This document shows, in pieces, positions 1 through 19,364 of a stretch of 64,000 nt of DNA. A program made the position numbers and the translations under genes. Source of the stretch: Spongiibacteraceae bacterium (GTDB lineage Bacteria > Pseudomonadota > Gammaproteobacteria > Pseudomonadales > Dasaniaceae). Location: the NCBI GenBank assembly GCA_028280715.1, contig JANQLG010000033.1, positions 1 through 64,000 on the forward strand, given 5' to 3'. The first letter of the stretch is position 1; the number at the start of each line of letters is the position of its first letter. Below the pieces are notes generated by a model. The model searched no databases and was not told the origin of the DNA. It worked only from the letters and a program-made list of their open reading frames with translations.

Positions 1-355
1 TACCGTGTCAGAGCCTGTAACACGCAGGGCAGTTACACCGCGTGTAGTGGTTATCGCACCGAAAGTGCCGCTGCTGTGGTGGCGAATGCGCCGGGTACGC
101 CGACCTCGATTGCAGCACCATCGACCGATAATAATGGCACCTTTACCGTCAGTTGGGGCACGTCATCGGGTAGCGTGGATGCCTATCAGTTGTATCAACA
201 AAAAGATGGTGGTAGTTGGGCCCAAATTTATAGTGGTACCGGTACCTCGAAAGCGGTCAGTGGTTTAAGTGATGGCAGTTACTTATACCGTGTCAGAGCC
301 TGTAACACGCAGGGCAGTTACACCGCGTGTAGTGGTTATCGCACCGAAAGTGCCG
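1..355 (+). repeat. Near-identical tandem FN3-coding repeat, 285-bp period
   Basis: Bases 1-70 are repeated exactly at 286-355, which gives a period of 285 bp or 95 codons, the size of one fibronectin-III-like module. The array continues upstream of the window. The next module (about 356-640) keeps the protein pattern (YRVRACN, CSG) but has diverged at the DNA level. Identity at DNA level suggests recent duplication or ongoing recombination between modules. Confidence 0.9.
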
Positions 356-3300: not shown

Positions 3301-6300
3301 GGCGCGTTTATGTCCAGGGAGGGTAATGTCTATACCCATGATAGCTATAACAATATTGAAGCCATAACCAGTACGGTATACAACACAGCTGACAATTCAT
3401 CCTGGGCCAGAACAACAGTCACGAGCAATAGCTACACTAATAATGCGAGCAATTGGTTGATTGGCTTAATGAATAGTAGCCGTGTCGATACTACCGTGAA
3501 TGGTAAACCTATGTTATCGCGTGAATCTGCCTGGACGTTTTATTCAGCTACAGGCCGAATTGAGCGAGAGCAAATTCTGCATCCCGGTACCGGATCTGTT
3601 CTGCATGAAACCTATTATAGTAATCTGGACAGCTTTGGTAATCATCGAACGGTTACCATTAGTGGCGCTGACTTCGATACACGGTCAACAAGCTATACCT
3701 ACGATGTCACTGGTCGTTTTGTGGCTTCGGCAACCAATGTTGTTGATGGTGTTACTCATACCAGTTCGACCAGCTACTATCCCACGGGCCATATCAATGC
3801 GGGCTTGGTGCAACTGACAACTGGTGTAAATGGTCTTCAGTCCTACCATGAGTATGACGCCTTTGGTCGAAAGACTACGGTTACGGCAGCTTATGGCACA
3901 GCCAATCCGATAGTCTCTTACACTAGTCTGGAAAGCTGTGGTACCACCAATGATTGTCCGCTGTATGCTGAATATCGCATTACGAAATCAGCTCAAGGTG
4001 GTGCGGGCAGTCGCAGCTATGTTGACCTGTTAGGTCGAACCCTGCGTAAAGCTGGTCAAACGATGGATGGCAGTTTTGCCCTGGTGGATTACGATTATGA
4101 CGTTCGAGGCAATAACTATCGAGTCAGCGAGCCTTATTTTGCCGGTGATACCATTCATCGTAACGTAGTTCATTTTGATGATCTAGGTAGAACCACTCAA
4201 GCTGTCTATCCCAATGGACGTACGGATGAGATCACTTACAATGGCCTAACTAAAATTTCGACTAATGACATCAATGGCGCCAGCCAATCAAAAACGGAAA
4301 TTAGTAATGTTTTGGGCCAACTGATACAAGTTATCGACAATAACCTGCAAAGTGTTACCTATGGCTATGACAGTCATAGCAATATGACGCGCGTAACTGA
4401 TCCGCTCAATAATGTCACCACTATTGGCTACGATGTGATGGATCGCAAGGCCTGGATGAATGATCCTGACAAAGGTTATTGGTCCTATACCTATAATAGT
4501 TTGGGCCAACTGATTACTCAGGAAGATGCCAAGCAGCAAGTTACCTGTAATGCCTACGACAGTTTAGGGCGTATGACCAAACGTATTGATAACTATAGTG
4601 GTTCTGTTGCCACAGGCGTTGGTGCCACAGCACAATCGACGGCGCACTGTGCTGGAGATGGCGGTAATCCTGAAACAACCACCTGGAACTACGATAATGC
4701 GGCCAATGGTATTGGTAAAATTTATCAGATTCACAGCCAGAATGGTTATCAGGAAACAGTTAGTTACGACAGTTATTCGCGCGCAACACAAAGTCTGAAA
4801 ACGGTTAATGGTGAAAGCTTTACCACTAATACCTATTACGACAATCTGCATCGCGTAGACCGCGTTCGCTATCCTGGTCCCAGCAATCGTCTGGAAGTAA
4901 AAAATATTTACAACAATTTAGGCTTTAATATCGAATTAGCCAACGCCGCTAATGGTCATCGTTATTACCAGGCCTTGACTATGGATGCGCGTGGCAACAT
5001 TACTTCGGAGAACTTTGGTAATGGTTTGAAAACAGTCAGGACATACAATCAGCAGACCGGTCATGTCAAAAACATTGAAGGTTATACGCAACTGGATTTA
5101 CTGGGAGCACCTTCAATACAAAACAATGAGTTCTTTTTCGACAAACTGGACAATTTACAGTGGCGTGAAGACTACAAGCAAAATATTCGTGAGGACTTCA
5201 CCTACGACAATTTAAACCGTCTGCGCTATGCCTATGCTGATTTTGGTAATGGCCAATTACAAACCAGCGAAGTCACCTACGATGCGCTAGGTAATATTCG
5301 CTCAAAAACCGGTGTTGGTAATTATAAATACGGCAACGAGTGTGCAGTGGCAGCAGGACCACATGCGGTATGTGAAATCACCGGCACCAAAAACACCACT
5401 TATCAATACGATGCCAACGGCAATATGGAAACCGGTGATGGCCGTGCCATTTTCTATACCAGCTTTGATAAGCCGTCACTGATCACCAAGGGCAATAATA
5501 GTAGCTTGTTGAACTATGGGCCCAGCCGTGAGTTAGTCTATCGTCGTGACGATAACAATGGCCAGGTCACGACGACCACCTATGTAGATGGCTTATACGA
5601 AAAGGTGGTGTTGCCATCAACACAAGTAGAAGAGCGTCACTACCTTGCTGGCATTGGTATCTTAACCATCAAGGATCGTACCGGCAGTTCTGCGGGTACT
5701 TCGCAGGAAAATTACCTGCATAAAGATCATCTGGGTTCCATTGTTGTGATTACTGATCAATACGCTCAGGTCAAAGAGGAATTCAGTTTTGATCCGTGGG
5801 GCAAACGACGCGCGCCCAGTTTGCAGAAGCTGGAGGAGCTGTTAAACAAACCCTGGGCGAGTATGACCACCCTGGAGCGAGGCAACCTAACACTGGCTCC
5901 TGCGGTGTTGTCATCACCCACGACCAATAAAGGTTTTACCGGTCATGAGCAATTGGATGGTGTTGGCCTGATTCATATGGGGGGCCGGGTTTATGATGCC
6001 GAGATCGGGCGCTTTATTTCCGCTGATCCGTTTATTCAGGACCGCACTAATCTTCAAGCGCTGAATCGATATAGCTATGTGCAGAATAATCCGCTGAGTT
6101 ATACGGATCCCAGTGGGTATTTTTTACAGAAGTTGGTGGGTAAGTTTTGGAAGGCAGTTAAGAGCCGTTTAAGTCGACTTAATGAAGAGCGTAAGAGTGC
6201 GATAAAGAGTATTGGGCGGTTTTTAAATAAGAATCCGGCGTTGCAGTTTGTGGCGACGGTGGTGGCTTACTACTATTGTGGACCTTATTGTGCTGCGTAT

Positions 6301-7101
6301 CTAGGGGCAGGCTTAGGTGCTGCACAGGCTTATGCGGCAGGCGGTAGTGCTGGTGATATCTTGGAAGGATTAGCCGTTGCCGCTGCCACGTCTTGGGTTG
6401 GACTTGGGATAGAAAATTATATCGTTGGTAATCAATATATTGCGCAAATGATAGCGGCAGGGATATCGGCTAAGGCGCAGGGCGGCAAGTTTATCGATGG
6501 GGTGAAGGGTGCTGCTATGGGGATGGCGATTAGTTGGGCTGCAGGAAAGATGATTGGGATGATGGCAAAACCACCTGCTGATCCTGAAACTCAAACAGCT
6601 GATATTAATGTGCCGGAAACTTCTGGGGGGGATATTGCTAGTCCTGATATTGCAGAACCTGAATTTGTAGATGGACCAGCCCCAGATCTATCTACACCAA
6701 ATCCAGCGCCTTATTCAAGGGGGGGAATTATTGAAGAGGTTGTAGTAACTGCGCAGTATACAGGTGCAGTGGATGTTGTTCCGCCTATGTATATTACTCC
6801 GACGATCTCAATGCAGAGTTGGGTTGATCAGCAAGTATCGGCGGTTAACGATAGGATTATGGAATACGGCTCATATGCTTTTGGGGGAGGTGTTGCCGGT
6901 GTTGTAGGCAAAGCTATACTTTCTACTCGGTTTGGGCGGGCCGTGTGTGTGGCAGGAGCTATCGCATGTAGTGCTGCATTGGATCCCGGCCAGAAGTTTA
7001 AAATGCCATTACGAGCTGTATCTAGACATATGGAGACTAGGGAAAGCATCCGACAAACTGCTAGAATTACACGCCGCTACGGTAATGGACAGAATAAATG
7101 A
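1..7101 (+). CDS. Giant FN3-SpvB-FG-GAP-Rhs repeat protein (5' end outside window)
   Basis: The reading frame is open from base 1, so the true start lies upstream; 2366 codons are visible. Order of parts: fibronectin-III-like repeats (to about nt 650), an SpvB-type domain typical of Tc toxin B subunits (about nt 720-1050), seven repeats with D-x-N-G-D loops (near nt 1648, 1813, 1999, 2173, 2350, 2530, 2707) that look like calcium-binding FG-GAP/VCBS blades, then Rhs/YD repeats ending in a core motif (GRFISADPF, then YSYVQNNPLSYTDPSGY, nt 6007-6120). The last 325 or so residues form a variable tip with glycine/alanine-rich hydrophobic stretches, a proline/acid-rich linker and a basic end. Known relatives build a hollow shell that encloses a C-terminal effector. 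I infer a secreted or surface polymorphic toxin-like protein. I recognise no catalytic domain in the tip; no ADP-ribosyltransferase motif of true SpvB was seen. Confidence 0.85.
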   Translation, partial: YRVRACNTQGSYTACSGYRTESAAAVVANAPGTPTSIAAPSTDNNGTFTVSWGTSSGSVDAYQLYQQKDGGSWAQIYSGTGTSKAVSGLSDGSYLYRVRACNTQGSYTACSGYRTESAVAIVANVPGAPSSLTVPSSDNDGSYTVSWGSVAGSVDFYELQEGTNGNWGVVYSGSNTSKSVSVTINGEYDYRVRACNSESTYTSCSGWSGTSSIAVIGLSVDLNPLSDNTLAFSQPSHDETVGAIASQSSVEADGSANYSIPITAPPGVGGVQPNLALTYNSNGSNGLIGVGWGLQGLSYIHRCPATLYHDGFIDAIDYDANDQFCLDGQRLVHIGNNEYRTAIDSFSKIVASGTSGSGPSYFTVWSRDGRIMQYGGTTNSKVNGGSAFGTSGSVSIWGLNKIEDRHSNTLTVTYQQEATTTEFRPLQIDYANGNASVVFEYDPATRPDFKRYYAQGDEMTSTKRLTNIKTYSGSQLLRDYRLTYEINTVNTQSQLKTVTECAGNNSCLEPTVFEWEVTTLGLQTPSLKLTSAQTGTAVYSPHGYYEFALDVNGDGLSDWMWMSWDDRTLRVAYSTGTGFSSPQNLVTDSVVKPYSSDGKHTNFADVNGDSLPDMIWAPWGRNDLWIAMSNGSGFDTPQQLFGGSIATSAGYNISPQSSHGMHVRYGDVNGDGLADQVWYPQSGNSPHSLWVALSNGNGFDTPTQWLQGGGLNTTSNDGRFTHLQDMNGDGLADYFWRPAGQSSMYVALSNGVDGFDNPTIWLNHTSDGAGVAPSSSYDKHSSLADVNGDGLIDYIWVPDGRTDIWVSINTGTDLKRPTLWMLANRGVGGAVSYSWEGKLKYFSDINGDGFADYVWVPEARHSLQYALSNGTGSFGPTQILLPDGVAAGYDPQSHEGQHEMFGDFNGDGAPDWAWVPEGRQDLWLAYSHTPAGKIKKVTNGFGAATEFVYKPMTDSSVYTNGTDALYPMLDLISASYVVSELKTPTGLGSGSRSTHFEYEQLKTHLKGLGSFGFGKMIETDQETGISTETVYKQTYDTGNSSVDGEKHNFGLVDSVITKASDGTVISDTRNSWVSRRIYNNGNRYHAQSLYSTYVNKYDLNGAFMSREGNVYTHDSYNNIEAITSTVYNTADNSSWARTTVTSNSYTNNASNWLIGLMNSSRVDTTVNGKPMLSRESAWTFYSATGRIEREQILHPGTGSVLHETYYSNLDSFGNHRTVTISGADFDTRSTSYTYDVTGRFVASATNVVDGVTHTSSTSYYPTGHINAGLVQLTTGVNGLQSYHEYDAFGRKTTVTAAYGTANPIVSYTSLESCGTTNDCPLYAEYRITKSAQGGAGSRSYVDLLGRTLRKAGQTMDGSFALVDYDYDVRGNNYRVSEPYFAGDTIHRNVVHFDDLGRTTQAVYPNGRTDEITYNGLTKISTNDINGASQSKTEISNVLGQLIQVIDNNLQSVTYGYDSHSNMTRVTDPLNNVTTIGYDVMDRKAWMNDPDKGYWSYTYNSLGQLITQEDAKQQVTCNAYDSLGRMTKRIDNYSGSVATGVGATAQSTAHCAGDGGNPETTTWNYDNAANGIGKIYQIHSQNGYQETVSYDSYSRATQSLKTVNGESFTTNTYYDNLHRVDRVRYPGPSNRLEVKNIYNNLGFNIELANAANGHRYYQALTMDARGNITSENFGNGLKTVRTYNQQTGHVKNIEGYTQLDLLGAPSIQNNEFFFDKLDNLQWREDYKQNIREDFTYDNLNRLRYAYADFGNGQLQTSEVTYDALGNIRSKTGVGNYKYGNECAVAAGPHAVCEITGTKNTTYQYDANGNMETGDGRAIFYTSFDKPSLITKGNNSSLLNYGPSRELVYRRDDNNGQVTTTTYVDGLYEKVVLPSTQVEERHYLAGIGILTIKDRTGSSAGTSQENYLHKDHLGSIVVITDQYAQVKEEFSFDPWGKRRAPSLQKLEELLNKPWASMTTLERGNLTLAPAVLSSPTTNKGFTGHEQLDGVGLIHMGGRVYDAEIGRFISADPFIQDRTNLQALNRYSYVQNNPLSYTDPSGYFLQKLVGKFWKAVKSRLSRLNEERKSAIKSIGRFLNKNPALQFVATVVAYYYCGPYCAAYLGAGLGAAQAYAAGGSAGDILEGLAVAAATSWVGLGIENYIVGNQYIAQMIAAGISAKAQGGKFIDGVKGAAMGMAISWAAGKMIGMMAKPPADPETQTADINVPETSGGDIASPDIAEPEFVDGPAPDLSTPNPAPYSRGGIIEEVVVTAQYTGAVDVVPPMYITPTISMQSWVDQQVSAVNDRIMEYGSYAFGGGVAGVVGKAILSTRFGRAVCVAGAIACSAALDPGQKFKMPLRAVSRHMETRESIRQTARITRRYGNGQNK

Positions 7102-8232: not shown

Positions 8233-9477
8233 TTATTCTCGATCAACCTTCGCATTACTATAAGCAGTAAACGACGGAATTGCAGCAGCAACAATAGTAG
8301 CAACTATAATCAACAGTAAAATCATACTATTACTATCTGAAAAAATATTAGTCCCGATATGTAGCCCAAAACTCGCAGCTAAAAAATTGCCTGCAGAGTG
8401 TAAAGAAAAATATAACCCGGCAATACCGATAACAATACTCATAAAACTGATTAATAACGCTTCCAGCTCTACTAATAAGAAAAGAAAAATCGGTGGAGCG
8501 CCAATGACTCTGAGTAAATGAATTTCATGTTTGCGTTCTCTGATAGAGGCTAGCATCATTGCACTTAAGCCTAGCAGGGCGGCTATTAAAATCAGTGCGG
8601 ATACCAGCCGAAGTGTGTTTTCTAATAATCCCATCATTTGCCATAGTTCAGATAAAGCAACACCGGGGAGAATGGCTGACAAAGGTTCATTGCGGTAATT
8701 ATTAATATCGCGTTGTACGCGAAAGGTGGCCATGCGGGAGGTTAAACCCAGCATAAACGCTGTAATACTTTTTGGTTCCAGCTTGGCTGCCATTAGCTGC
8801 TCGTTGGTAATTGTGCTGCCAGGCATTTTTACTCCCTGCTGCCAGTCGATATGAATTGCTTCGATACCCTGTAAACTTACATGCAGTGTTTGATCTACGG
8901 GTGTGCCTGTGGTTTCTAGAATGCCTACCACGGTAAATGGTCTGTCATCGTGCTGGCTGAAGCTGGTAGTGGCTAGGCCGTGCGCTAATACCAATGTATC
9001 GCCAAGCTTGTAGCCCAGTTTGCTGGCGACTTCTGAGCCGAGTACCACATCGAATACTTCGTTAAAGGGTTTGCCTGCTTTAAAGGCGAGGTTGCGTTGT
9101 TTGCCGTAGCTAAAGTGTTTGAAATAATCAGCAGTGGTGCCCATCACCCGATAGCCTTTATGAGAATCACCGAGTGAGATGGGTATTGCCCAATCCACTC
9201 TTGGGTTTGACGCAATATCTTGGAAGGTATTCCAGCTGATGTTGTTGGTGGGGGCGCCGATGCGAAACACAGAATACAGTAATAGGTTAAGACTGCCGGT
9301 TCTGGCACCGACAATCAGATCAACGCCTGACACCGTGCTGTTAAAGCTGTCTTTGGTTTGATGCCTGATATGCTCAACGCCCAGCAGTACAAAAACACTG
9401 ACACTCATGGCCAGCACAGTCAGTACTACGGAGCCTTTGCGGTTCAGTAAACTTTTTATTGCCAGCCGGATAAACAT
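8233..9477 (-). CDS. FtsX/MacB-family ABC transporter permease of the zinc-starvation locus
   Basis: A 414-residue permease of the LolCE/MacB/FtsX type: one N-terminal membrane segment (about residues 15-35), a large periplasmic domain (about 40-280), then three C-terminal membrane segments with the conserved A-S-I-R-E-R-K-H-E-I-H-L-L-R-V-I-G-A signature. Its ATG overlaps the stop of the upstream ATPase gene (TAATG), so the two are translationally coupled. Together they form a mechanotransmitting ABC module rather than a classical importer. Position beside a Zur-like operator and zrgA, yeiR and zur points to a role in zinc scarcity, as for the ABC genes of the Vibrio cholerae zrg locus; the substrate is not shown by sequence. 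Confidence 0.85.
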   Translation of the reverse strand: MFIRLAIKSLLNRKGSVVLTVLAMSVSVFVLLGVEHIRHQTKDSFNSTVSGVDLIVGARTGSLNLLLYSVFRIGAPTNNISWNTFQDIASNPRVDWAIPISLGDSHKGYRVMGTTADYFKHFSYGKQRNLAFKAGKPFNEVFDVVLGSEVASKLGYKLGDTLVLAHGLATTSFSQHDDRPFTVVGILETTGTPVDQTLHVSLQGIEAIHIDWQQGVKMPGSTITNEQLMAAKLEPKSITAFMLGLTSRMATFRVQRDINNYRNEPLSAILPGVALSELWQMMGLLENTLRLVSALILIAALLGLSAMMLASIRERKHEIHLLRVIGAPPIFLFLLVELEALLISFMSIVIGIAGLYFSLHSAGNFLAASFGLHIGTNIFSDSNSMILLLIIVATIVAAAIPSFTAYSNAKVDRE

Positions 9478-10157
9478 TAGTGACTTTCTCCTGCTGCGTT
9501 GATATCAGATAGCGCATCAATACGTTCAAAGTACTTGGCCAGCGACATATCGTGGCTGACAAACAATAGGGTGACGTTGTTGTCTTTAGCCATAGCCATC
9601 AGTTCGGACATGAAGTTGTCGCGATTTTGCTGGTCGAGTGATGAAGTTGGCTCATCGGCAATGAGCAGCTCTGGTTTATTGATCATTGCCCGGGCAATAG
9701 CAATACGCTGTTGTTGGCCAATACTGAGTTGAGCGACAGGTTTATTCCACTCGGCTTCAGTAATATTGAAGGTTGCTAATAAAGCGGTGATGTCATCATG
9801 TGATATTGCGGTTTTATCTTTTTTCGAGAAGTGATGGGCCAGCTGAATATTGTCAATCGGATCGAGATAGTCGATGAGATTGAACTGCTGGAATATATAG
9901 CCGATGTGATCGGCCCGAAAACGGTCACGCTGGCGGTTACTCATGGTATTCAGTGGTTGGCCGAGCACTGATACTTCACCGTGGCTGGCCGCTAGCATGC
10001 CGCTCAACAGATTTAGCAGGGTGGATTTACCGCCACCTGAAGGGCCATGGACAAATACGTGTTCCTGTTCAGCTACTGTCCAGTGTTTGATATCTAGTAC
10101 CGTCTTATTCGGTGTTTGAGGATATGCAAACCGGACATCCTTCAGTTGAATTGCCAT
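9477..10157 (-). CDS. LolD/MacB-type ABC transporter ATP-binding protein
   Basis: A 226-residue ATPase with Walker A GPSGGGKST (about residues 39-47), signature LSIGQQQ (about 143), Walker B LLIADEP and the switch histidine in VSHD. The length and the SSLD D-loop fit the LolD branch. It is coupled to the permease downstream by a one-base overlap. Its start lies 44 bp from the palindrome at 10201-10221, from which the DUF3299-like gene diverges. Likely repressed by Zur when zinc is sufficient (inference from the site and neighbours). The true transported or remodelled substrate is unknown. Confidence 0.9.
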   Translation of the reverse strand: MAIQLKDVRFAYPQTPNKTVLDIKHWTVAEQEHVFVHGPSGGGKSTLLNLLSGMLAASHGEVSVLGQPLNTMSNRQRDRFRADHIGYIFQQFNLIDYLDPIDNIQLAHHFSKKDKTAISHDDITALLATFNITEAEWNKPVAQLSIGQQQRIAIARAMINKPELLIADEPTSSLDQQNRDNFMSELMAMAKDNNVTLLFVSHDMSLAKYFERIDALSDINAAGESH

Positions 10158-10200
10158 AAATATAATCGTCCAGATACTCTAATAACAGGTTGCCTAAATC

Positions 10201-10221
10201 AAATGATGCACAGTATCATTT
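10201..10221. promoter_or_regulatory. Putative Zur operator between divergent genes
   Basis: Perfect inverted repeat AAATGAT-N7-ATCATTT. The same arms occur in the palindrome upstream of zrgA (13925-13947), the only other promoter of the zinc locus. It lies between the ATPase gene on the minus strand and the DUF3299-like gene on the plus strand, so one site could repress both. A possible plus-strand promoter, TTGCCT-N18-TATCAT, overlaps it. AT-rich palindromes of about 21-23 bp are usual for gammaproteobacterial Zur. Confidence 0.65.
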
Positions 10222-10255
10222 CGTCGTCTGATTTTAAATGTTGCAGGTAGTCTAC

Positions 10256-10855
10256 TTGAAAGCGATGGCCTTATTTGAACGTACTTTTTTATTGAGCTTA
10301 TTGGTTGTTTTATTCTTTAGTGGTGGTGTTTCTGCTGAGAGTTCATCAGTTGCATCAACTGTTACTGAGTTTAAAACCATTGAGTGGCCAGACCTTATCC
10401 CGCAAGATGATTTGGAAGCTTTGTTGAATCCACCCGATTATCTTAATGATATTGAGGATGGCTCCTTTGAGGATCAAATCACTGGTCAAATTCAGAATAC
10501 GATTGCTGCCGCGAGGGATGATCGTTACCAGCAGGCGCTAGTATCTACCAATATCAAACCTGAGATGGATGGCCAGTCAATTCGCATTCCTGGTTTTATT
10601 GTGCCTTTGGAGTTTGATGATGACCAAATCATTACCCAGTTTTTTCTAGTGCCTTTTTTTGGCGCTTGTATTCATGTGCCGCCACCGCCACCGAATCAAA
10701 TTATTTTTGTCAATTTTCCAAAGGGTTTAAAACTTGAAGCGCTGTATGATCCATTTTGGATTTCTGGCAAGTTGAACACCACTCTCACTCAAAATGATCT
10801 GGCAACATCTGCTTATGCTATGGAAATGGTCTCGTACGAAGCTTATACGGAGTAG
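10256..10855 (+). CDS. Exported DUF3299-type protein of the zinc locus
   Basis: About 200 residues with a clear signal peptide (LLSLLVVLFFSGGVSA) and a mature domain whose core IRIPGFIVPLEFDD ... FFLVPFFGACIHVPPPPPNQ matches DUF3299, a family often found with LolD-like ABC genes and Zur-regulated loci. It is presumably periplasmic; the Cys-Ile-His and proline run could be a metal or partner site (inference). Start choice is open: TTG at 10256 has an AGGTAG 5 bp upstream, ATG at 10265 gives the most compact signal peptide, and ATG at 10238 would leave almost no leader after the operator. It is divergent from the ABC pair and convergent with the yeiR end of the operon. Confidence 0.8.
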   Translation: MKAMALFERTFLLSLLVVLFFSGGVSAESSSVASTVTEFKTIEWPDLIPQDDLEALLNPPDYLNDIEDGSFEDQITGQIQNTIAAARDDRYQQALVSTNIKPEMDGQSIRIPGFIVPLEFDDDQIITQFFLVPFFGACIHVPPPPPNQIIFVNFPKGLKLEALYDPFWISGKLNTTLTQNDLATSAYAMEMVSYEAYTE

Positions 10856-10893
10856 GGTGTTTGGAGCAGGATCTTTGCAATAAGTTATTTGAG

Positions 10894-11904
10894 TTAGGCT
10901 GTGTCGATTAGACAGGAAAATAATTGATTTTCCCATTGGTCATCAATGGCTGGCGCAATAATTTCAATACGGCTTTCAAGGCAATCATCCAATTCAATCT
11001 CGGTTAAAGCGTCACTGGTAAGATTGTAACCATACACACCGCTATCCGTAATAAATACTGCTTTCATACGTTCTGCCGTAATACTATTTAAGAATGAAAA
11101 TAATTTATTGCGACTAAAGGTTTTAGCGGGGCTAAAACGCCAGCCAACGCTTTGAAATCCTTCGCCTTGATTGTTCGCTTTGATATAGCCACATTCTGGA
11201 ATAGGGCCATCGGCTATATTTTCGGTTTTTATCTGTGCTTGATGATGGTGATGATGAGAATGAGCAGTAGCCATGGTAGCACCATCAAGATGCTGAGTCG
11301 TTAATTTACCCTGTTCAGTGAAAATGACTTCAACATCAGGTGAAGCATTATTCTTAGCATAGTTTTCAAGCAAGGCTTTATCCTCTGGCTGATAAAGATC
11401 TTGCTTATTGCCGACAATGACATCGGCTATGGCAATTTGTTGGTTGAATGTAGCGTGTTGTGTATAACGTGTGTCGGCAAGTTTTCTTGCGTCGACTAAG
11501 GTGACTATTTTTTCAATGGATAATACTTCTCGATAATGATCGGCTGTTAAGACTTCCAGTACTTCAATGGGATGGCCCAGCCCAGTGGGTTCAATTAATA
11601 AACGATCCGGATTAGCGCGCTTGAGTAATTGGCTCAATGCAATTTGCATCGGTAAGCCCGCGGCGCAGCACATACAACCGCCTGGTACTTCGCGAATATA
11701 GACACCTGTTTCTTCAGTGTTTTGACCTTGGAACAAACTGCCATCCACACCAATTTCACCAAACTCATTGACCAAAATAGCCCAGTGTTCTTCAGGTGGT
11801 TTATTTTCTAGTAAATGTAAAATAGTTGATGTTTTTCCTACGCCCAAAAAACCCGTAATGATATTAGTTGGCACAGCAAGAATTTTTTCTGAGTTTTTGT
11901 TCAT
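10894..11904 (-). CDS. yeiR: COG0523 (CobW/YeiR-type) zinc GTPase
   Basis: A 336-residue P-loop GTPase. Visible motifs are Walker A GFLGVGKT (residues 18-25), NEFGEIGVDG (46-55), the metal-binding C-x-C-C site as GGCMCCAAG (C77, C79, C80), IEPTGLGHP, and NKQD for guanine specificity. A histidine run (SHHHHHHQ) forms the linker to the C-terminal CobW domain. The pattern is closest to E. coli YeiR, a zinc-binding GTPase of the family proposed to deliver zinc to client enzymes. It is the last gene of the operon zrgA-zur-merC-like-hisI-yeiR, 20 bp after hisI, which fits a zinc-limitation metallochaperone; its client here is unknown, possibly the adjacent HisI. Confidence 0.9.
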   Translation of the reverse strand: MNKNSEKILAVPTNIITGFLGVGKTSTILHLLENKPPEEHWAILVNEFGEIGVDGSLFQGQNTEETGVYIREVPGGCMCCAAGLPMQIALSQLLKRANPDRLLIEPTGLGHPIEVLEVLTADHYREVLSIEKIVTLVDARKLADTRYTQHATFNQQIAIADVIVGNKQDLYQPEDKALLENYAKNNASPDVEVIFTEQGKLTTQHLDGATMATAHSHHHHHQAQIKTENIADGPIPECGYIKANNQGEGFQSVGWRFSPAKTFSRNKLFSFLNSITAERMKAVFITDSGVYGYNLTSDALTEIELDDCLESRIEIIAPAIDDQWENQLFSCLIDTA

Positions 11905-11924
11905 GGCTTGGTGTGGCGATGGTT

Positions 11925-12347
11925 TTAAACAGGAGGCGAAGTTAATACTGAAACGGCTTGATTAGTTGTATCAACTTCAAAATAAAAGCAACTTTGACGA
12001 CCGGTATGGCAAGCTGCTCCCTTCTGGTGAACGAGGCATAAAATAGCATCACCATCGCAGTCAAAGCGCATGGATTGCAAAGATTGGTAGTGGCCGCTGG
12101 TTTCTCCTTTAATCCATAGTTCATTGCGGCTGCGTGACCAGTAGGTTACCCGGCCTGTGGAAAGTGTTGTTTCCAGGGCTTGTTGATTCATCCAGGCTAA
12201 CATAAGCACTTGTTTGCTAACGGCATCCTGGGTAATAACAGGAATAAGCCCTTTGCCGTTAAAGTTGAGCTCATCAACAATATCTTTGAGGGCTAATTCC
12301 TGGCCACTTTCTAGCCGTTCCAGGGACTGAAAATAAATATTTTTCAT
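11925..12347 (-). CDS. hisI: Phosphoribosyl-AMP cyclohydrolase, zinc-locus copy
   Basis: A 140-residue enzyme of histidine biosynthesis step 3 (opens the purine ring of phosphoribosyl-AMP). The family core is intact: W70-S-R-S-R, GETSGH, D96-C97-D98-x-D100 (magnesium site) and the zinc-site cysteines C97, C113 (ACHTG) and C120 (SCF). There is no HisE fusion and no his genes nearby. Instead it sits between a MerC-like gene and yeiR in a Zur-type operon, matching the described HisI2 class of Zur-linked paralogs. Because the zinc ligands are kept, it may be supplied by YeiR rather than being zinc-free. Whether another hisI exists in the genome cannot be seen here. Confidence 0.9.
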   Translation of the reverse strand: MKNIYFQSLERLESGQELALKDIVDELNFNGKGLIPVITQDAVSKQVLMLAWMNQQALETTLSTGRVTYWSRSRNELWIKGETSGHYQSLQSMRFDCDGDAILCLVHQKGAACHTGRQSCFYFEVDTTNQAVSVLTSPPV

Positions 12348-12353
12348 TGATAA

Positions 12354-12764
12354 TCAGCTACTAGCTTGTTGGTGACATTCACAGTTACTACGTTGACAGA
12401 GATTGTGATTCCATAAATGTCCTATTGCGACCAGGCTGGCACCGACTACTGTTAACGATTTTTCGATGATTTCTCCGAGAATGTCATGCCCTAACAAACC
12501 TGTGGCTATTAATGTTACTAATCCGACCACTCCTGGTAATAGCACTCGATATCGTCTGTGCTTACCGCAACCCAAAGTCAAGGCGTAGAGGCTTGTCGGT
12601 ACGACAGCGATCAACAGCCAGATATGAAAAATTTCGTTTTCCAGTGATAGGGCAGTGAGCGAAGGTAACAGCGTAACCATGATGGGTATGGCCAGGCAAT
12701 GAATGGTACAGATAACGGAAAGGCTAATAGCTGTTTTATCGGCGATAGCTTGTATATTTCTCAT
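12354..12764 (-). CDS. MerC-domain small membrane protein
   Basis: A 136-residue membrane protein with about four hydrophobic segments. Near the N-terminus it has C-T-I-H-C-L-A-I-P, the paired cysteine/histidine motif of MerC-family transporters, and the tail HNLCQRSNCECHQ is rich in cysteine and histidine. MerC proteins move mercuric ion inward; distant homologs in Zur loci are of unknown function and may carry or sense zinc. It lies 6 bp upstream of hisI and 22 bp after zur, so it belongs to the same transcript. No other mercury-resistance genes are present, which argues against a mer role. Confidence 0.8.
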   Translation of the reverse strand: MRNIQAIADKTAISLSVICTIHCLAIPIMVTLLPSLTALSLENEIFHIWLLIAVVPTSLYALTLGCGKHRRYRVLLPGVVGLVTLIATGLLGHDILGEIIEKSLTVVGASLVAIGHLWNHNLCQRSNCECHQQASS

Positions 12765-12786
12765 TGATATTACTTATATAGATTAA

Positions 12787-13248
12787 TTAAGAATTATTTG
12801 TCATGCAACTATTGCACAGGCAATGCATTTCCAGTTGCGGGCTGGTAAGGTGGAATCCTGCTTCTTTTACATTCTTTTTAAGTGCGTTGATGGTTGATCT
12901 TTTGATAGTGATTTCTTCTACATGTTGACAATTTCTGCAGATTAAAAATTGAGGTACACCATGATCGTGTTCACAGGTGATGTGCGAACATGCTATGTAT
13001 TTATTGGCCAGATTGAGTTTGTGTACCAAGTGCTCTTCTTGTAAAAAATCCAGAATTCGATAAACAGACATCGGTGGTAATGTTTCGCCAAATTCATTTT
13101 TGCAGTAATCAACCAGCTCATAAGCGGACATGGCTTTTCCCGATTGTAATAAACCTGTAAGCACTTGTTTGCGTTTGTTGGTTAGTCTCACACCGTTTTC
13201 ACTGCAACTTTTCTCGGCATGTTTAATGATGGTTTGTACTTTACTCAT
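12787..13248 (-). CDS. zur: Zinc uptake regulator Zur (Fur family)
   Basis: A 153-residue Fur-family repressor. The N-terminal winged helix shows GVRLTNKRKQVL and PPMSVYRILDFL, very like E. coli Zur. The dimer domain has HDHG, C104-R-N-C107 and C143-x-C145-x2-C148, fitting structural zinc sites. The EKSC and VHKLN contexts also match Zur rather than Fur. With zinc bound it should repress uptake genes; its place as second gene behind the palindrome at 13925-13947 implies autoregulation. It starts 6 bp after the zrgA stop codon. Confidence 0.9.
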   Translation of the reverse strand: MSKVQTIIKHAEKSCSENGVRLTNKRKQVLTGLLQSGKAMSAYELVDYCKNEFGETLPPMSVYRILDFLQEEHLVHKLNLANKYIACSHITCEHDHGVPQFLICRNCQHVEEITIKRSTINALKKNVKEAGFHLTSPQLEMHCLCNSCMTNNS

Positions 13249-13253
13249 AAGTA

Positions 13254-13856
13254 TTATCTTATGCGGACAACATGTGATTTTTCTGTCAGCTTGGTTGCCC
13301 CTTGTTTTTGGTCAGTGAGCCACATGACATTGAGTGTCTCAATACCCGGAAACTGGGGGAAAAAGTCTATAGATACCTGCGAAATATCTGACCCTTGTTC
13401 GCAATCATAATGATAAAAGGCCGTAATTTCGCTATGTGATATTTCATCATGATGGTGTATCTCTTTCTCTTGAGCAACATGTTCATGATGATCTGCGTGT
13501 GTCTCATTATGAGTCATATGGGCTGGCATATTAACCGTTGCCTTTACTGCGTTACATGTTGTGCCTGAGAAGGAAAATAGCTTGGGGGATGATTCAAGCA
13601 GCAACTTGGCTTTTTCAACGGCTTGCACTTGATCAGGCGATGTGACTTTGTGTTCAAACCCCACGATGTTTACTGCTGGGGATTCCAAATGTATTTCAAG
13701 CGTATTTTCTACAATGGCAATAGTCAGCTCAGCGGAGCCGTGAACATGGGCATTTGATTCTGAGTGTGTATGCTCATGTGCGTGAGGTACATCTGCTGCG
13801 TAGGCATGCAGCGAAATGAGTAGGAGAAATAAAGATTGTAGAAATATATTTCTCAT
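13254..13856 (-). CDS. zrgA: Histidine-rich periplasmic zinc-binding protein (DUF2796, ZrgA-like)
   Basis: A 200-residue exported protein with signal peptide LFLLLISLHAYA. The mature N-terminus is histidine-rich (HAHEHTHSESNAHVHGSAEL), and a second His-rich loop lies near residues 113-145 (HNETHADHHEHV, IHHHDEISHSE). The HVHGSAELTIAIV and FFPQFPGIETLNVMWLT blocks match DUF2796. In Vibrio cholerae the zrg locus with a DUF2796 protein supports zinc uptake beside znuABC. Here it is the first gene of the Zur-type operon. It likely binds zinc in the periplasm; whether it hands zinc to the ABC pair at 8233-10157 is inference. The symbol is by analogy. Confidence 0.85.
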   Translation of the reverse strand: MRNIFLQSLFLLLISLHAYAADVPHAHEHTHSESNAHVHGSAELTIAIVENTLEIHLESPAVNIVGFEHKVTSPDQVQAVEKAKLLLESSPKLFSFSGTTCNAVKATVNMPAHMTHNETHADHHEHVAQEKEIHHHDEISHSEITAFYHYDCEQGSDISQVSIDFFPQFPGIETLNVMWLTDQKQGATKLTEKSHVVRIR

Positions 13857-13907
13857 TACAAATGTCTCAAGTATGTTCGGTTAGCTGGTTCTGGTTAAGG
13901 GTGGCAC

Positions 13908-13947
13908 ATATAATCATAAATAGTAAAATGATACAACATATCATTTT
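13908..13947 (-). promoter_or_regulatory. Promoter and putative Zur operator of zrgA-zur-merC-hisI-yeiR
   Basis: The perfect inverted repeat AAAATGATA-CAACA-TATCATTTT spans 13925-13947. On the minus strand a promoter TTGTAT (13936-13931) N17 TTATAT (13913-13908) has its -35 box inside the palindrome, so a bound repressor would block polymerase. The arms equal those of the palindrome at 10201-10221. With zur in the operon this is most simply a Zur box. Confidence 0.7.
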
Positions 13948-14730
13948 TGCTATTTAAAGAAGAAATTAACGATAAAACTTACGCTTCGAGGTAGGGGTTG
14001 GCTATTTATTAGGTATAGGGTGATTATTTTGCTTGGCATACCAGCCACATTTTGCTGTGATTATTTTTTAACTGTTTGATTTATAAGGATTTAGTTTTGT
14101 TTAAACGCTCTCAAAGTGTAAGTTTAGATGCATTTTAAATGAGCAAGAGCAAATAAATAGGGACTACAGCCATGATTCATTGTTGTGATGGGTGTCTATA
14201 GGGCTTGAAGGTGGGGGTCATTATATCTGCAATTAAAATTATGCCATGATTTTATATTCTAATTATTTATATTAATAATGTGATAGTGTTCTCTATGTTG
14301 TTGTATATCTGGGATTTTTGGTTTTTTTACGCTGATTGTCTGTGACCAGTTATGTGAGGTGTAAGCAGGTTTGTACTTCGTTTATAGTTTGTGCCCATAC
14401 CTATCATAAGTTTGGTTTTTTATTTGGTTTCGTGTGTGAGAATCATTGGTAGGATACTCCGTATTCTAGCAATTTATTGAATAGCCAGTTTGTTTGTAAC
14501 GATAAAAATAACAGAGAGATGCTGTATTGCATGAGAAGCAGATGGTTAAGATGTCCCTTTGCATATTCCATATTTTGTATTAATTAGAGTCCAATCTAAT
14601 TGATAGGCATTTCTTTTTGTCTCGGGAAAGTAGCCAATAACGAGTTAGTCATTATCTAGCGATTTTAGGTGGTAGGTACGTATAGGCTTTTTCTATCAAT
14701 ATTTCTAACAATAGGATGAGAGGTTCTGCC
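13948..14730. other. Gene-free AT-rich region upstream of the TonB-dependent receptor
   Basis: About 780 bp with no convincing reading frame or RNA gene. The only structures I see are the inverted repeat AATTAGA-GTCCAA-TCTAATT at 14582-14601, about 130 bp before the receptor gene and a possible operator, and a Shine-Dalgarno-like GAGAGG at about 14718-14723. Confidence 0.5.
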
Positions 14731-16944
14731 ATGAAAAAAAATAAACTTGCCCATATCATCTCTGGGCTGGCGATAGCAACTTCGGGTGAAATAGCGTTTG
14801 CACAAGCTAATACGTTAGAGGAAGTGATCGTCACAGCGACTAAAAGGGAAGAAAGTCTGCAGGAAATACCCATAGCTGTTTCGGCCATTTCAGGAGAATC
14901 TTTTAAACAAGCCGGTTTAGATAACAATAAAGATCTGGCGGTAAAATCGCCAAACTTGAATATTTCTTCACCCTTCTCGGCGGCAAATCCTTATATCACT
15001 TTACGTGGTGTTGGTAATGGTGGTGACTTTTCACCACTGCCTGAAGGTTCAGTGGGTGTGGCCTTTGATGGTGTAACTGTTATCGCTCAAAATGGTCGTT
15101 TAACTCAGGCATTTGACTTGGAACGTGTCGAGGTACTTCGCGGACCACAGGGCACGCTATTTGGTAAGAACACAACCGGCGGTGTTATCAGTTATATCTC
15201 CCGCAAACCTGGTGATGAATTTGATTACAACATTGATTTAACGGTTGGCCGTTTTGCTCAAACGGATGTTGAATTCGGTATGGATATGCCAGTCAGTGAT
15301 GAACTTAAAGTACGTGTCGCGGGTGTTTCTAATAAAAGAGATGGTTATGTCGATAATCTTCTGACTAAAGAAGATCTGAATGATGTAGATAATCAAGCGG
15401 CAAGGGTTGTTATGGTGTGGGAGCCATCGGATACATTTGATGCCACACTAAACCTGAATACTTTTCGTGATCGAGGTGGTGTAAATACAGGTAAAAACAG
15501 GCCTGTTGGTGTTGAATTTGGTGGCACTGGAACAGATTATTTGGGCTTTGATGGCTTTGCTATAGATGATCCATTCACTGTAGAAATTAATACCGATACC
15601 TATGAACACATTGATTCTGATGGTTCGATTCTTACGATGAATTGGGACCTTGGCTATGCAACGCTGACTTCTGTATCAGGTGTGGTCGAAGTCGATCGTG
15701 ATCAAGTACAGGATTTCGATTATTCCATTAATGATTCTGTAGAACATCGTTATATCGATAATACTGAACAGTTTTCCCAGGAGCTTCGTTTAGCATCTAA
15801 TACGGATTCAGATCTTCAATGGATGCTTGGATTATTTTATTTTGATTCAACGTTGGAGACGAATCACCGCTTTTCCTTTGCCGCGATAAGTACCTTTTTT
15901 CATCAAAATGCAAAACTGGATACTGAGAGCCAAGCCATTTTCGGTAATATCTCTTACAACCTATCCGATGCCTTAAGATTAAGGGTTGAAGGCCGGTATA
16001 CCGACGAAACGAAAGATTATCGGTTTGAGCAGCTAGGGTTCCCCGGTGCCACAGCTCCAGACTATAGCCGTGCTGATAGCATCACGGGACCTACTGTGGT
16101 TAATCAGCCATCTATATCTGATGATGCTACCTTTGATGAATGGTCGGGCCGTATCACCTTGGATTATCAAATGAATGATGAGGTGATGCTATATGCCAGC
16201 GCTAGCCGTGGTTTTAAGTCGGGTATATTCCAGTTTCCATTATTTCTGACAAATACAGCTACTAACGCTACTGGCCCTGAGACCATCGTAGCCTATGAGG
16301 TAGGTGCTAAAACTACTTTGTTTGATAATCGGGCACGGATTAACTTCAGCGCGTTTAATTACAATTTTGAAGACCAACAGGTCTTTACGTTAAGTGGTAT
16401 CAATCCGCTTGTGCCTGAATTATTAACAGAAAATGCTGATGAAGTGGAAATCATTGGTATGGAGCTGGATTTTACTTTGATACCAACAGCGAATTGGACC
16501 ATTACGGGCAGTGTTGGTTATTTACCCATTGCTGAATATGAAGAGTTTACTTACTTGGAAGGCCTTCCCAATGCTGCAGATTTGTCTGGCGAGCGAATTC
16601 AATATGCGCCGAGAACTGATGGCACCATAGAAGTAAGTCATTTGTCTGAGTTTGGTAATGGTATGCAGTTAACCAGTAGTGTTAGTTATGATTTTCAAGC
16701 TGAACATTCTGCCGATGCAGCTAATGCTGTAACGGGGGGTAGACTGTATGTGCCTCGCTGGCACACATGGAATGCTCGGTTTTCTTTAGACGTATCTGAG
16801 CAATTGACAGTTACTGCATGGGCTAAAAACATTACAGATGAAGAATACATTGACGGCCTTGTAAACATAGGGGCCTTTGGATATGACATGGCTCTATATG
16901 GTGAACCGAGAACTTTTGGATTAACGTTATCCTTTAAACATTAA
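14731..16944 (+). CDS. TonB-dependent outer membrane receptor
   Basis: A 737-residue receptor of unknown substrate. It has a signal peptide ending AFA (residues 22-24), TonB box LEEVIVTA (29-36), a plug domain with ITLRGVGNG and VEVLRGPQGTLFGKNTTGG, then a beta-barrel with YGEPRTFGLTLSFKH at the end. The ATKREESLQEIPIAVSAIS opening is typical of the large receptor group common in sphingomonads and marine gammaproteobacteria, which take up sterols, lipids, glycans or siderophores. I start at the ATG at 14731 because GAGAGG sits 7 bp upstream; an in-frame ATG exists at 14716. The next gene is a molybdopterin enzyme, but the 236-bp gap and a weak hairpin suggest separate transcription. No TonB or ExbBD nearby. 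Confidence 0.92.
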   Translation: MKKNKLAHIISGLAIATSGEIAFAQANTLEEVIVTATKREESLQEIPIAVSAISGESFKQAGLDNNKDLAVKSPNLNISSPFSAANPYITLRGVGNGGDFSPLPEGSVGVAFDGVTVIAQNGRLTQAFDLERVEVLRGPQGTLFGKNTTGGVISYISRKPGDEFDYNIDLTVGRFAQTDVEFGMDMPVSDELKVRVAGVSNKRDGYVDNLLTKEDLNDVDNQAARVVMVWEPSDTFDATLNLNTFRDRGGVNTGKNRPVGVEFGGTGTDYLGFDGFAIDDPFTVEINTDTYEHIDSDGSILTMNWDLGYATLTSVSGVVEVDRDQVQDFDYSINDSVEHRYIDNTEQFSQELRLASNTDSDLQWMLGLFYFDSTLETNHRFSFAAISTFFHQNAKLDTESQAIFGNISYNLSDALRLRVEGRYTDETKDYRFEQLGFPGATAPDYSRADSITGPTVVNQPSISDDATFDEWSGRITLDYQMNDEVMLYASASRGFKSGIFQFPLFLTNTATNATGPETIVAYEVGAKTTLFDNRARINFSAFNYNFEDQQVFTLSGINPLVPELLTENADEVEIIGMELDFTLIPTANWTITGSVGYLPIAEYEEFTYLEGLPNAADLSGERIQYAPRTDGTIEVSHLSEFGNGMQLTSSVSYDFQAEHSADAANAVTGGRLYVPRWHTWNARFSLDVSEQLTVTAWAKNITDEEYIDGLVNIGAFGYDMALYGEPRTFGLTLSFKH

Positions 16945-16972
16945 CTCTAAAATTTGTTTAATTGCTAGATTC

Positions 16973-17006
16973 TACCCCTAAAAAATTAGTGCTTTGATTA
17001 GGGGTA
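16973..17006 (+). terminator. Possible weak terminator after the receptor gene
   Basis: The inverted repeat TACCCCTA ... TAGGGGTA has 8-bp arms and an 18-nt loop and is followed by TTTAAG. It lies 29 bp past the stop codon. The short T tract makes termination uncertain. Confidence 0.35.
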
Positions 17007-17180
17007 TTTAAGCATTCTAAACGGTATTTTTAGCGTTAATGTAGAAAGGCTTAGGATCACTTTTTATAGTCAATTTAATAAACAATTTAATAGACACATT
17101 GGCTATATGAAGTAATTTAATTTGAGTAACGTAGTTATTTTTTGTATGTTGCATGCAAGAAGTCTTTGGAGAACTTTATT

Positions 17181-19364
17181 GTGAATAATATTGTGGCGAG
17201 TACTGGGCAAGATGGCGAACACATAACCTATTGTCGAATTTGTGAAGCGCTTTGCGGACTAAAAGCGACGGTAAAAGATGGCAAAGTAGTCAAGGTTGAG
17301 CCTGATAAGGACAATATCAGTTCCAAGGGTTTTATATGCACTAAAGGCCCTAATATGGTCAATGTCATGAATGACCCTGAGCGTGTGCTTTATCCGATGA
17401 AACGCACAGGTGGTCCTGGCGAGTTTTCCCGAGTGAGCTGGGAAGAGGCGATGGATGATATCTGCACCAAGCTCGGAGCCATTAAAGAAGAACATGGTGG
17501 CGAAAGCATTGCTGCTTATGTGGGTAACCCCATGGCCTTTGCTGGTAATAATTATGGGATGGTGATTAGCTTTCTCAATTCCCTGGGGTCAACACAAAAT
17601 TACACACCTTGTGCGGTCGATATTTCTGCTGTGTGCTTTGCGACAGAAACTGTATTGGGGCCTGGTTTTCCTATCCCCGACATTCCAAATTGTGATTACT
17701 TTTTAATTATTGGCGCTAATCCATTGGAGTCACATGCATCGCTCGTGCATGCACCAACCATTCGTGAAGATATGGATGCGATTGCTGAACGGGGCCAGGT
17801 TGTGGTGGTTGACCCTCGCTTGACCAAAACGGCAAAGCGCTACCATCATCAACCCATTTTGCCGAATACCGATATTTATTTTCTGGCCGGATTGTTGAAT
17901 ACGGTATTTGATGAATCGTTAACCGATGAGCAGTTTCTTGCTGAGAACGTAGTTGGCGTTGAACCATTTCGAAATGCATTAAAAGGTCTGCCCATTGAGC
18001 TATGTTCGGAGCAATGTGGAATCCCGGTTGAGGATATTCAGAAAATTGCACGAGATTTCGCAGGGCACAAACGTGCCGCTGCCTACAGCCGGTTGGGAAC
18101 AAGCAGAGCCAGTTATGGTGCATTGACTAACGTCTTAATCATGGCGCTAAATATTGTTACGGGTAAGTTTGGTGTTAAAGGCGGAAGTTTTATGGGGGCT
18201 AACCCCTATCTGCCCGAGAGCTTTTCAAACAGAGGTGCACCTAACAGCCATGGTATGCAGAAGACGCGTACTGGTGATTTGCCCGCTATTGGTGGTCACT
18301 TGCCTGGTACTGTGATGGCTGATGAGATTTTGAGTGAAAGAGCTGATCGACTGCGTGCAATGATTGTTAGCGCCGGTAATCCTGTGGTTTCCTTCCCCGA
18401 CGGTAGTCGTTTGGAAGAAGCACTACAACAACTGGATGTGATGGTGGGCATTGATCTTTATATTAACGAAACCAATCAATATGCCGATTATATTTTGCCG
18501 GCGACGTCTTTCTTTGAGCGTGAAGATTTGCCGGTATTTTCGATTTCCACAATGCCGCGGCCTGCCATGCACTTTTCACCCAAAGTCATTGATCCCATGG
18601 GCGAAGCGAGAGAAGAGCAGTATATCTTTATGGAAATTGCCGAGCGTTTAGGTTTGCCTAATCCAGTAGCGATGACGTTCTTGCCTGAAGATATGTGGGA
18701 GCAACATAAAAAGTCGGACATGATTGATATGTTGGATCTTTGTATTCGTAATGGTATGGCGGGTGATCATTATGGTGAAAATCCTGAAGGTTTAAGCCTT
18801 GATAAAATCAAGCAGCATCCACATGGTATTGAAGTGACTGGTATTGATTCCTACAACGAGTGGCGTCGCCATGCACGGCATGAAGAAGGCAAGCTGGTGC
18901 TTTGGGAAGACAATATCGCTGCTGATTTTAAGCGTTTGACCACAGAAGGGTTACGTTTAAAACCGGCGAGTGATCAGTTGGCTCTTTTTGGACGTCGTTC
19001 TATCAAAAATATCAATTCCTGGATGCACAATATCGAAAATCTGGTAAAAGGCGCTCCACCAGCGTTATACATAAATCCGGAAGATGCTGAACAGCGCAAT
19101 ATTCAGGATGGCCAGATGGTGGTCATCAAAGGTAAAAATCGCGAAGCCCAATGCCCGGCTAAAGTGACCGGGGATGTGGTGAAGGGTTCAGTCTGTTATC
19201 CACATGGCTGGGGTCATAATGGTAAAGCCAATTGGACGCGGGCAAACCAGACAGAAGGCATTAACATCAACGATTTGCTGTCTTCAGATATAGAGGATGT
19301 TGATGCGTTAACTGGTTCTCCACTGCTGGATGGCTTTCCGGTGTATGTGGAAGCCGTTAGTTAA
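17181..19364 (+). CDS. Molybdopterin-dependent oxidoreductase (DMSO reductase family), orphan
   Basis: A 727-residue enzyme with an N-terminal iron-sulfur motif C18-x2-C21-x3-C25-x27-C53 ([4Fe-4S]), the central molybdopterin-binding domains (IGANPLESH, VVVDPRLTKTA, ADYILPATSFFERED) and a C-terminal dinucleotide-binding domain (ALYINPEDAEQRNIQDGQMV ... CYPHGWGH). It has no Tat signal peptide, so it should be cytoplasmic. I start at GTG 17181, which has GGAG 9 bp upstream; a TTG at 17142 lacks one. No iron-sulfur or membrane partner subunit adjoins it, unlike formate dehydrogenase or nitrate reductase operons. It could be an oxidoreductase acting on a small organic substrate, but the substrate is not readable. 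The molybdenum ligand is uncertain, perhaps near PCAVDISAVC. Confidence 0.85.
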   Translation: MNNIVASTGQDGEHITYCRICEALCGLKATVKDGKVVKVEPDKDNISSKGFICTKGPNMVNVMNDPERVLYPMKRTGGPGEFSRVSWEEAMDDICTKLGAIKEEHGGESIAAYVGNPMAFAGNNYGMVISFLNSLGSTQNYTPCAVDISAVCFATETVLGPGFPIPDIPNCDYFLIIGANPLESHASLVHAPTIREDMDAIAERGQVVVVDPRLTKTAKRYHHQPILPNTDIYFLAGLLNTVFDESLTDEQFLAENVVGVEPFRNALKGLPIELCSEQCGIPVEDIQKIARDFAGHKRAAAYSRLGTSRASYGALTNVLIMALNIVTGKFGVKGGSFMGANPYLPESFSNRGAPNSHGMQKTRTGDLPAIGGHLPGTVMADEILSERADRLRAMIVSAGNPVVSFPDGSRLEEALQQLDVMVGIDLYINETNQYADYILPATSFFEREDLPVFSISTMPRPAMHFSPKVIDPMGEAREEQYIFMEIAERLGLPNPVAMTFLPEDMWEQHKKSDMIDMLDLCIRNGMAGDHYGENPEGLSLDKIKQHPHGIEVTGIDSYNEWRRHARHEEGKLVLWEDNIAADFKRLTTEGLRLKPASDQLALFGRRSIKNINSWMHNIENLVKGAPPALYINPEDAEQRNIQDGQMVVIKGKNREAQCPAKVTGDVVKGSVCYPHGWGHNGKANWTRANQTEGININDLLSSDIEDVDALTGSPLLDGFPVYVEAVS

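Follow-up and report, generated by a model that had tools for sequence, protein, structure and literature searches.

Two palindromes of one design in the window considered here, the first 64,000 nucleotides of contig JANQLG010000033.1 from a Spongiibacteraceae bacterium, are very probably operators of the zinc-responsive repressor Zur that is encoded between them. Site 1, AAATGAT-N7-ATCATTT (10201-10221), lies inside the 80-base-pair (bp) divergent spacer at 10158-10237, so that a single operator could serve both directions. Site 2, AAAATGATA-N5-TATCATTTT (13925-13947), lies upstream of a five-gene minus-strand run, zrgA-zur-merC-hisI-COG0523, which extends from 13856 down to 10894 with gaps of 5-22 bp. 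Both palindromes are exact and where the initial annotation, a reading of the letters and their open reading frames (ORFs), had put them. It had also assigned them to the two promoter regions of the locus, which fits this layout, and had noticed no other such sites; the window indeed holds no third match with fewer than 3 mismatches. The DUF3299 gene, on the plus strand, is convergent to the five-gene run and is followed by the minus-strand ABC ATPase and permease pair. The features are as follows.

10201..10221, no strand: operator 1, candidate Zur box of one-dimer type, within the divergent spacer of 80 bp that separates the DUF3299 gene from the ABC ATPase gene
13925..13947, no strand: operator 2, a further candidate Zur box, located upstream of zrgA by about 70-90 bp
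13254..13856, minus: zrgA, periplasmic zinc-binding protein (DUF2796; Pfam PF10986, 1.1e-44)
12787..13248, minus: zur, Fur-family zinc repressor (Pfam FUR PF01475, 4.3e-14)
12354..12764, minus: MerC-like membrane protein (Pfam MerC, 7.5e-29)
11925..12347, minus: hisI paralogue, phosphoribosyl-AMP cyclohydrolase (Pfam PRA-CH)
10894..11904, minus: COG0523/CobW-family GTPase, putative metal chaperone (Pfam cobW, 1.9e-44)
10238..10855, plus: DUF3299 protein, zrgE/PA4066 type by synteny (Pfam DUF3299, 9.7e-49)
9477..10157, minus: ABC ATPase, zrgC type as named in PMC9820375 (Pfam ABC_tran, 8e-30; synteny in relatives)
8233..9477, minus: MacB/FtsX-type ABC permease, zrgB type in the same naming (Pfam MacB_PCD and FtsX; synteny in relatives)

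In the proposed switch, dimers of zinc-loaded Zur would, when zinc is sufficient, bind the RNNNY-N3-RNNNY cores of the two sites. At site 2 this would shut off the zrgA-zur-merC-hisI-COG0523 run, and at site 1 the DUF3299 gene together with the ABC ATPase-permease pair; when zinc is low, Zur would release and both units would switch on. Since zur lies in the run that begins at site 2, negative feedback through zur is likely. The same Zur may also control three other loci of the genome, zigA-dksA2-DUF1826, TonB receptor-cobN-exbB-like and TonB receptor-pyrC-folE2. The sites, the gene content and their conservation are observed, whereas Zur binding, a response to zinc, co-transcription in operons and feedback are inferred. 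On the operators and the feedback the initial annotation was probably correct. What it came upon is most likely a known, textbook kind of switch in a gene context that is unusual, not unique.

Fit of the two sites to Zur motifs

The palindrome pattern, with up to 3 mismatches, matches the window 13 times against 8.5 expected from shuffles, an unremarkable total from which sites 1 and 2 stand out with 0 mismatches each. An exact AAATGAT-N7-ATCATTT is expected about 0.0007 times in 64 kilobases (kb) of the window's base composition, and none arose when the window was replaced by 40 Markov versions. Because the pattern was itself taken from the sites, post hoc, this expectation flatters the finding. 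The one-dimer motif, ATGWTAYNNNRTAWCAT, is found 4 times in the window at up to 2 mismatches, with 3.9 expected, and at 0-1 mismatch only as sites 1 and 2.

The Escherichia coli Zur motif, TRWNAYRWTATAWYRTNWCA as a string in the review PMC6103462, provides an independent standard. For E. coli Zur, PMC4219657 describes RNNNYxxxRNNNY as the element bound by one dimer, with overlapping elements for two. Site 2 agrees with the two-dimer motif at 19 of 20 positions; when as many as 3 mismatches are allowed the window has 13 matches (13.3 expected), of which this site, with 1 mismatch, is the best, and all those away from it have 3. Site 1 differs in fitting the one-dimer element only (1 mismatch to ATGWTAYNNNRTAWCAT, 5 to the 20-bp motif). 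The suggestion of the initial annotation, that the arms differ from the E. coli consensus and may be a lineage variant, is weak. Overlapping double boxes of the E. coli kind occur elsewhere in this genome, at C19, C37 and C50:111009. Relatives combine TGATA with TGTTA half-sites, at times within one operator, which weakens the idea of a lineage-specific operator; a lineage variant is not clearly indicated.

The repressor itself is filed as a Zur-class member of the Fur family and not as an E. coli-type equivalog: the best NCBIfam model is indeed Zur (NF008646), at 94.6 bits with the next model at 49.9, but the equivalog cut-off of 167 bits is missed. H76, C87, C104, C107, E112, C145 and C148 are present in 48 of 48 sequences, the window's included. 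They stand at the Cys/His/Glu metal-ligand positions of E. coli Zur. The protein aligns to E. coli Zur (4mtd), and in that pairwise alignment Y43 and R64 fall on Tyr45 and Arg65, which PMC4219657 reports as base contacts; both are likewise found in all 48 sequences.

The initial annotation had the second palindrome covering the -35 box of its promoter, an overlap that was not found: the promoter scan finds no minus-strand match, the strand of zrgA, over site 2. A plus-strand match (13901-13929) touches the site and is directed away from zrgA, and the matches around it, 5 in all, are about as many as expected (4.8). By eye, a TTGTAT within the site 2 palindrome stands 17 bp from a TTATAT, a pair below the scan's reach. 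At site 1, 2 matches are found where 0.4 are expected; the plus-strand one at 10190-10219 points toward the DUF3299 gene and has its second hexamer within the palindrome.

Recurrence in the genome and among relatives

Reversed patterns served as controls for the motif scans. Across the genome the E. coli motif, with no more than 1 mismatch allowed, is matched 5 times forward and 5 times in reverse (control: 0 and 1). The forward places are the zrgA site, C37:3912 (0 mismatches), C19:74729, C50:111009 and C28:27527, the last of which was rejected as probably a chance match, lying inside an ATP synthase-like ORF. The shorter palindrome ATGATA-N5-TATCAT occurs exactly 6 times against about 0.55 expected from the window's base composition, and 4 of the 6 precede zinc-type genes. 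One is the site before zrgA. A second, on C34, stands before zigA (705.6 bits; cut-off 600), a DksA gene (dksA2) whose product keeps 2 of 4 zinc-finger cysteines by eye, and a DUF1826 gene. The C19 site is followed by genes for a TonB receptor, a CobN-like protein, MotA/ExbB and DUF2149, and the one at C50:26617 by genes for a TonB receptor with His-rich stretches, a dihydroorotase (pyrC) and FolE2. The longer pattern, with two mismatches allowed, gives 64 forward sites in the genome against 26 in the control. The single small regulon in one place of the initial annotation did not survive, since like sites stand before these three other zinc-type loci.

Two of the places have less obvious company. 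At C37:3911-3932 the perfect E. coli motif match sits inside a 22-bp palindrome, upstream of a Pyr_redox_3 flavoprotein gene, a sodium/bile acid symporter-family gene and an AstE/AspA-type gene; by its box this is a candidate Zur operon, with no obvious role for zinc. Around C50:111009-111028 a double Zur-type box lies upstream of the gene for a short DUF4880 protein, and the gene after that looks, by eye, like polyphosphate kinase.

In the relatives, counted here and in the residue comparisons of Zur and the MerC-like protein without five loci that duplicate others from the same genomes (L129, L130, L136, L137 and L142), ATGWTAYNNNRTAWCAT recurs at the same two promoters in most: with 0-1 mismatches in 13/19 zrgA promoters (1 more has 2 mismatches and 5 have at least 3) and in 10/15 divergent spacers (1 with 2, 4 with at least 3), figures that lean toward ATGWTAYNNNRTAWCAT because it was written after the sites were seen. 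Two of the five zrgA loci with at least 3 mismatches (L134 and L139) have a site upstream of zur instead. In both sister genomes the spacer site has 0 mismatches, and the window's own has 1. A second threshold, set either by a matrix built from the genome's own sites or by no more than 2 mismatches to the E. coli motif, is passed by 13/19 zrgA promoters, 5/15 spacers and 19/28 promoters of zur genes without adjacent zrgA (loci of which 19 of the 28 are from Vibrionaceae), and by 33 sites in the remaining 666 kb. The Vibrionaceae loci L144-L162 encode a related Zur (48-56% identical) close to a COG0523 gene, and in 15 of these 19 a Zur-type box lies at most 300 bp upstream.

The genus itself offers seven genomes, three with matches to both zur and zrgA and four with neither, a natural comparison. 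Forward matches to the E. coli motif with 0 or 1 mismatch number 5, 3 and 3 in the zur-bearing genomes and 1, 1, 1 and 1 in those lacking zur (G002-G005), with controls of 0, 0, 0 and 0, 0, 1, 2. Reverse matches number 5, 3 and 2 (G000, G006, G001) against 3, 1, 3 and 1 (controls 1, 0, 0 and 0, 1, 1, 3), and places merged over both strands 5, 3 and 3 against 3, 1, 3 and 2, the zur-lacking genomes being mostly the larger. In the two zur-bearing sisters the motif stands before zrgA, before a zigA-like gene and before a TonB receptor gene (names by eye); no zinc-type gene adjoins the 3 of 9 places inspected in the zur-lacking genomes (L167, L171, L174). This gene content is better support than the counts.

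Several points tell against assigning the palindromes to Zur. The reverse-strand matches blunt the forward contrast, which leaves the genus count as weak support, and G001 and G006 are so nearly alike that they are not independent and amount to little more than one. Sites with 0-1 mismatch are absent from 6/19 zrgA promoters and 5/15 spacers, and only those 5 of 15 spacers pass the second threshold. The 5 mismatches of site 1 to the E. coli motif belong here too. Both sites do have the RNNNY-N3-RNNNY core (GATGC-ACA-GTATC in site 1, GATAC-AAC-ATATC in site 2), which, consisting of four purine/pyrimidine choices alone, is a weak, low-information test. The Pseudomonas aeruginosa Zur consensus GWWAYWNNNTWHCR (PMC10393844) gives 10 matches against 7 expected, site 2 among them and site 1 not, and does not discriminate. 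Single-mismatch sites are often noise, judging by ATGATA-N5-TATCAT at up to 1 mismatch (31 in the genome, 13 in the control). Two of the six exact sites precede no zinc-type gene: C8:7925, inside an ABC gene, was dismissed by its context, and C50:144924 is a Fur-like box. Even at zigA the start of the longest ORF overlaps the site; the match to the ZigA model begins at residue 22 and the sister genomes use an inner start, and a start further in would place the site upstream of the gene.

Could the palindromes be there by chance, or for another purpose, with the locus not Zur-controlled through them? The choice of pattern after the sites had been seen, the chance-level promoter-like matches near site 2 (none overlapping it on the zrgA strand) and the weak genus comparison would allow it. 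Against these stand the independent match to the E. coli motif and the finding that sites recur both at the two positions, in most relatives examined, and before other zinc-type genes, and we consider the idea very improbable. Only slightly less improbable is that the sites are operators for Fur, responding to iron, or for another Fur-family protein. TGAT-rich palindromes resemble Fur boxes, the genome encodes three FUR-domain proteins, and the look-alike at C50:144924 (AAATGATAATGATTATCATTA) reads as a Fur box when judged by the Fur consensus. The zinc-type genes at the sites speak for Zur, however, as do the fit of the zrgA site to the E. coli Zur motif and the spacers CAACA and CATCA, which are unlike that of the Fur-like site; the Fur-family protein of C16 lacks CxxC pairs, by eye. 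The AAATGATAATGATTATCATTA palindrome (C50:144924-144940) lies upstream of a gene that looks, by eye, like one for an iron-type solute-binding protein.

Zinc transport in a genome with no ZnuA or ZnuB match

The gene content is as the initial annotation described it, except that its yeiR can be given a COG0523/CobW-family assignment only, that protein reaching none of the NCBIfam cut-offs. Calling this a complete zinc-starvation locus was an overstatement: no member of the ZnuA or ABC-3/ZnuB families is found in the locus or anywhere in this 98.35%-complete genome. ZnuA is otherwise common (161 of 194 genomes searched) and is matched in 0/7 genomes of the genus, one of which has a completeness of 64%. 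A zrgA match is found in 75 genomes, and 5 of these, three from this genus and two from outside it, do not belong to the ZnuA-bearing set. The genome does have a ZIP-family transporter gene, at C27, which was rejected as a Zur target for want of a good Zur-type site, its best one-dimer match having 4 mismatches and its best 20-bp match 3. This leaves the ABC pair (ZrgBC) and the MerC-like protein as the Zur-linked candidates in the inner membrane.

ZrgA, ABC ATPase and MacB-like permease occur together at the locus. ZrgA scores 152.7 against the Pfam cut-off of 27.4 and matches PA4063 (7ahw, 4.8e-22) and another zinc-binding protein (8ezw, 3e-16) in the PDB; it misses the cut-off of its NCBIfam equivalog, NF047873, at 110 bits against 185. 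The DUF3299 protein matches a PDB 'hypothetical protein' (4hsp, 3.8e-28), which may, we presume, be PA4066. Which way the Zrg system moves its substrate is disputed. The Vibrio papers favour import, PMC9820375 taking Vibrio cholerae ZrgA for the solute-binding protein for zinc and the permease to be MacB-like, while PMC11481552 treats PA4064-65 as a MacB-type exporter linked to pyochelin and cobalt.

The MerC-like protein invites speculation. C19, H22, C23, H47, H69, H116 and C123 are present in 22/22 sequences, the window's included, and C66 in 21; the protein carries the conserved motifs C-x2-H-C and C-x2-H and a C-terminal Cys/His motif. These residues may bind metal. It is conceivable, if doubtful, that the protein imports zinc across the inner membrane in concert with ZrgABC and the DUF3299 protein, a suggestion drawn from sequence and context. 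Among the titles listed by literature searches none places MerC within a Zur regulon, and for zinc in the genus Oceanicoccus no paper came up, the full texts falling outside the scope of these searches. Outside this lineage MerC-domain genes also lie in metal-type neighbourhoods: in Catenovulum (L182) they adjoin DUF3299 and ABC genes, on a Sphingomonas plasmid (L183) a DUF1826 gene, a 'transcriptional repressor' gene and two genes for GTP-binding proteins, and in Tolypothrix (L184) genes for a P-type ATPase and a regulator of the ArsR type. With no ZnuA match in any of its seven genomes, the genus offers a clean background for studying the roles of ZrgABC and the MerC-like protein.

Related systems and neighbouring genes

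The closest known system is PA4063-PA4066 of P. aeruginosa (PMC11481552, PMC4542158), which likewise comprises a ZrgA-type protein, PA4063, that the window's ZrgA matches, an ABC ATPase and MacB-type permease and a fourth periplasmic protein. A Zur box upstream is reported there, and PMC11481552 describes the PA4063 operon as repressed by zinc. Here, in contrast, the genes are split into the zrgA run, with zur, merC, hisI and COG0523, and the divergent DUF3299/ABC unit, with a separate candidate operator for each; P. aeruginosa also has ZnuABC, while this genome gave no match to the ZnuA or the ZnuB family. The zrgABCDE genes of V. cholerae and Vibrio parahaemolyticus (PMC9820375, PMC9817125), which PMC9817125 places under Zur, share ZrgA and the ABC pair with its MacB-like permease; the gene order differs, and zur, merC, hisI and COG0523 are built in only here.

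PMC2770081 describes Zur-regulated clusters of paralogues (COG0523, DksA, HisI, PyrC, FolE2), and the same gene types stand behind like sites in this genome. The HisI paralogues of that account keep their zinc ligands. This genome has two hisI copies, the second at G000:C11, and the window's HisI keeps three cysteines (C97, C113 and C120) common to both. The run also holds a MerC-like gene, which is not among the types listed here from PMC2770081.

Downstream of the locus, 14716-19364 holds a TonB receptor gene followed by a molybdopterin oxidoreductase-like gene (by eye). The receptor, 769 bp from site 2 and with no high-scoring site nearby, was considered as a Zur target and set aside. At the other end of the window, 76-7101 encodes a 2341-residue protein that by eye is RHS/YD-repeat-like.

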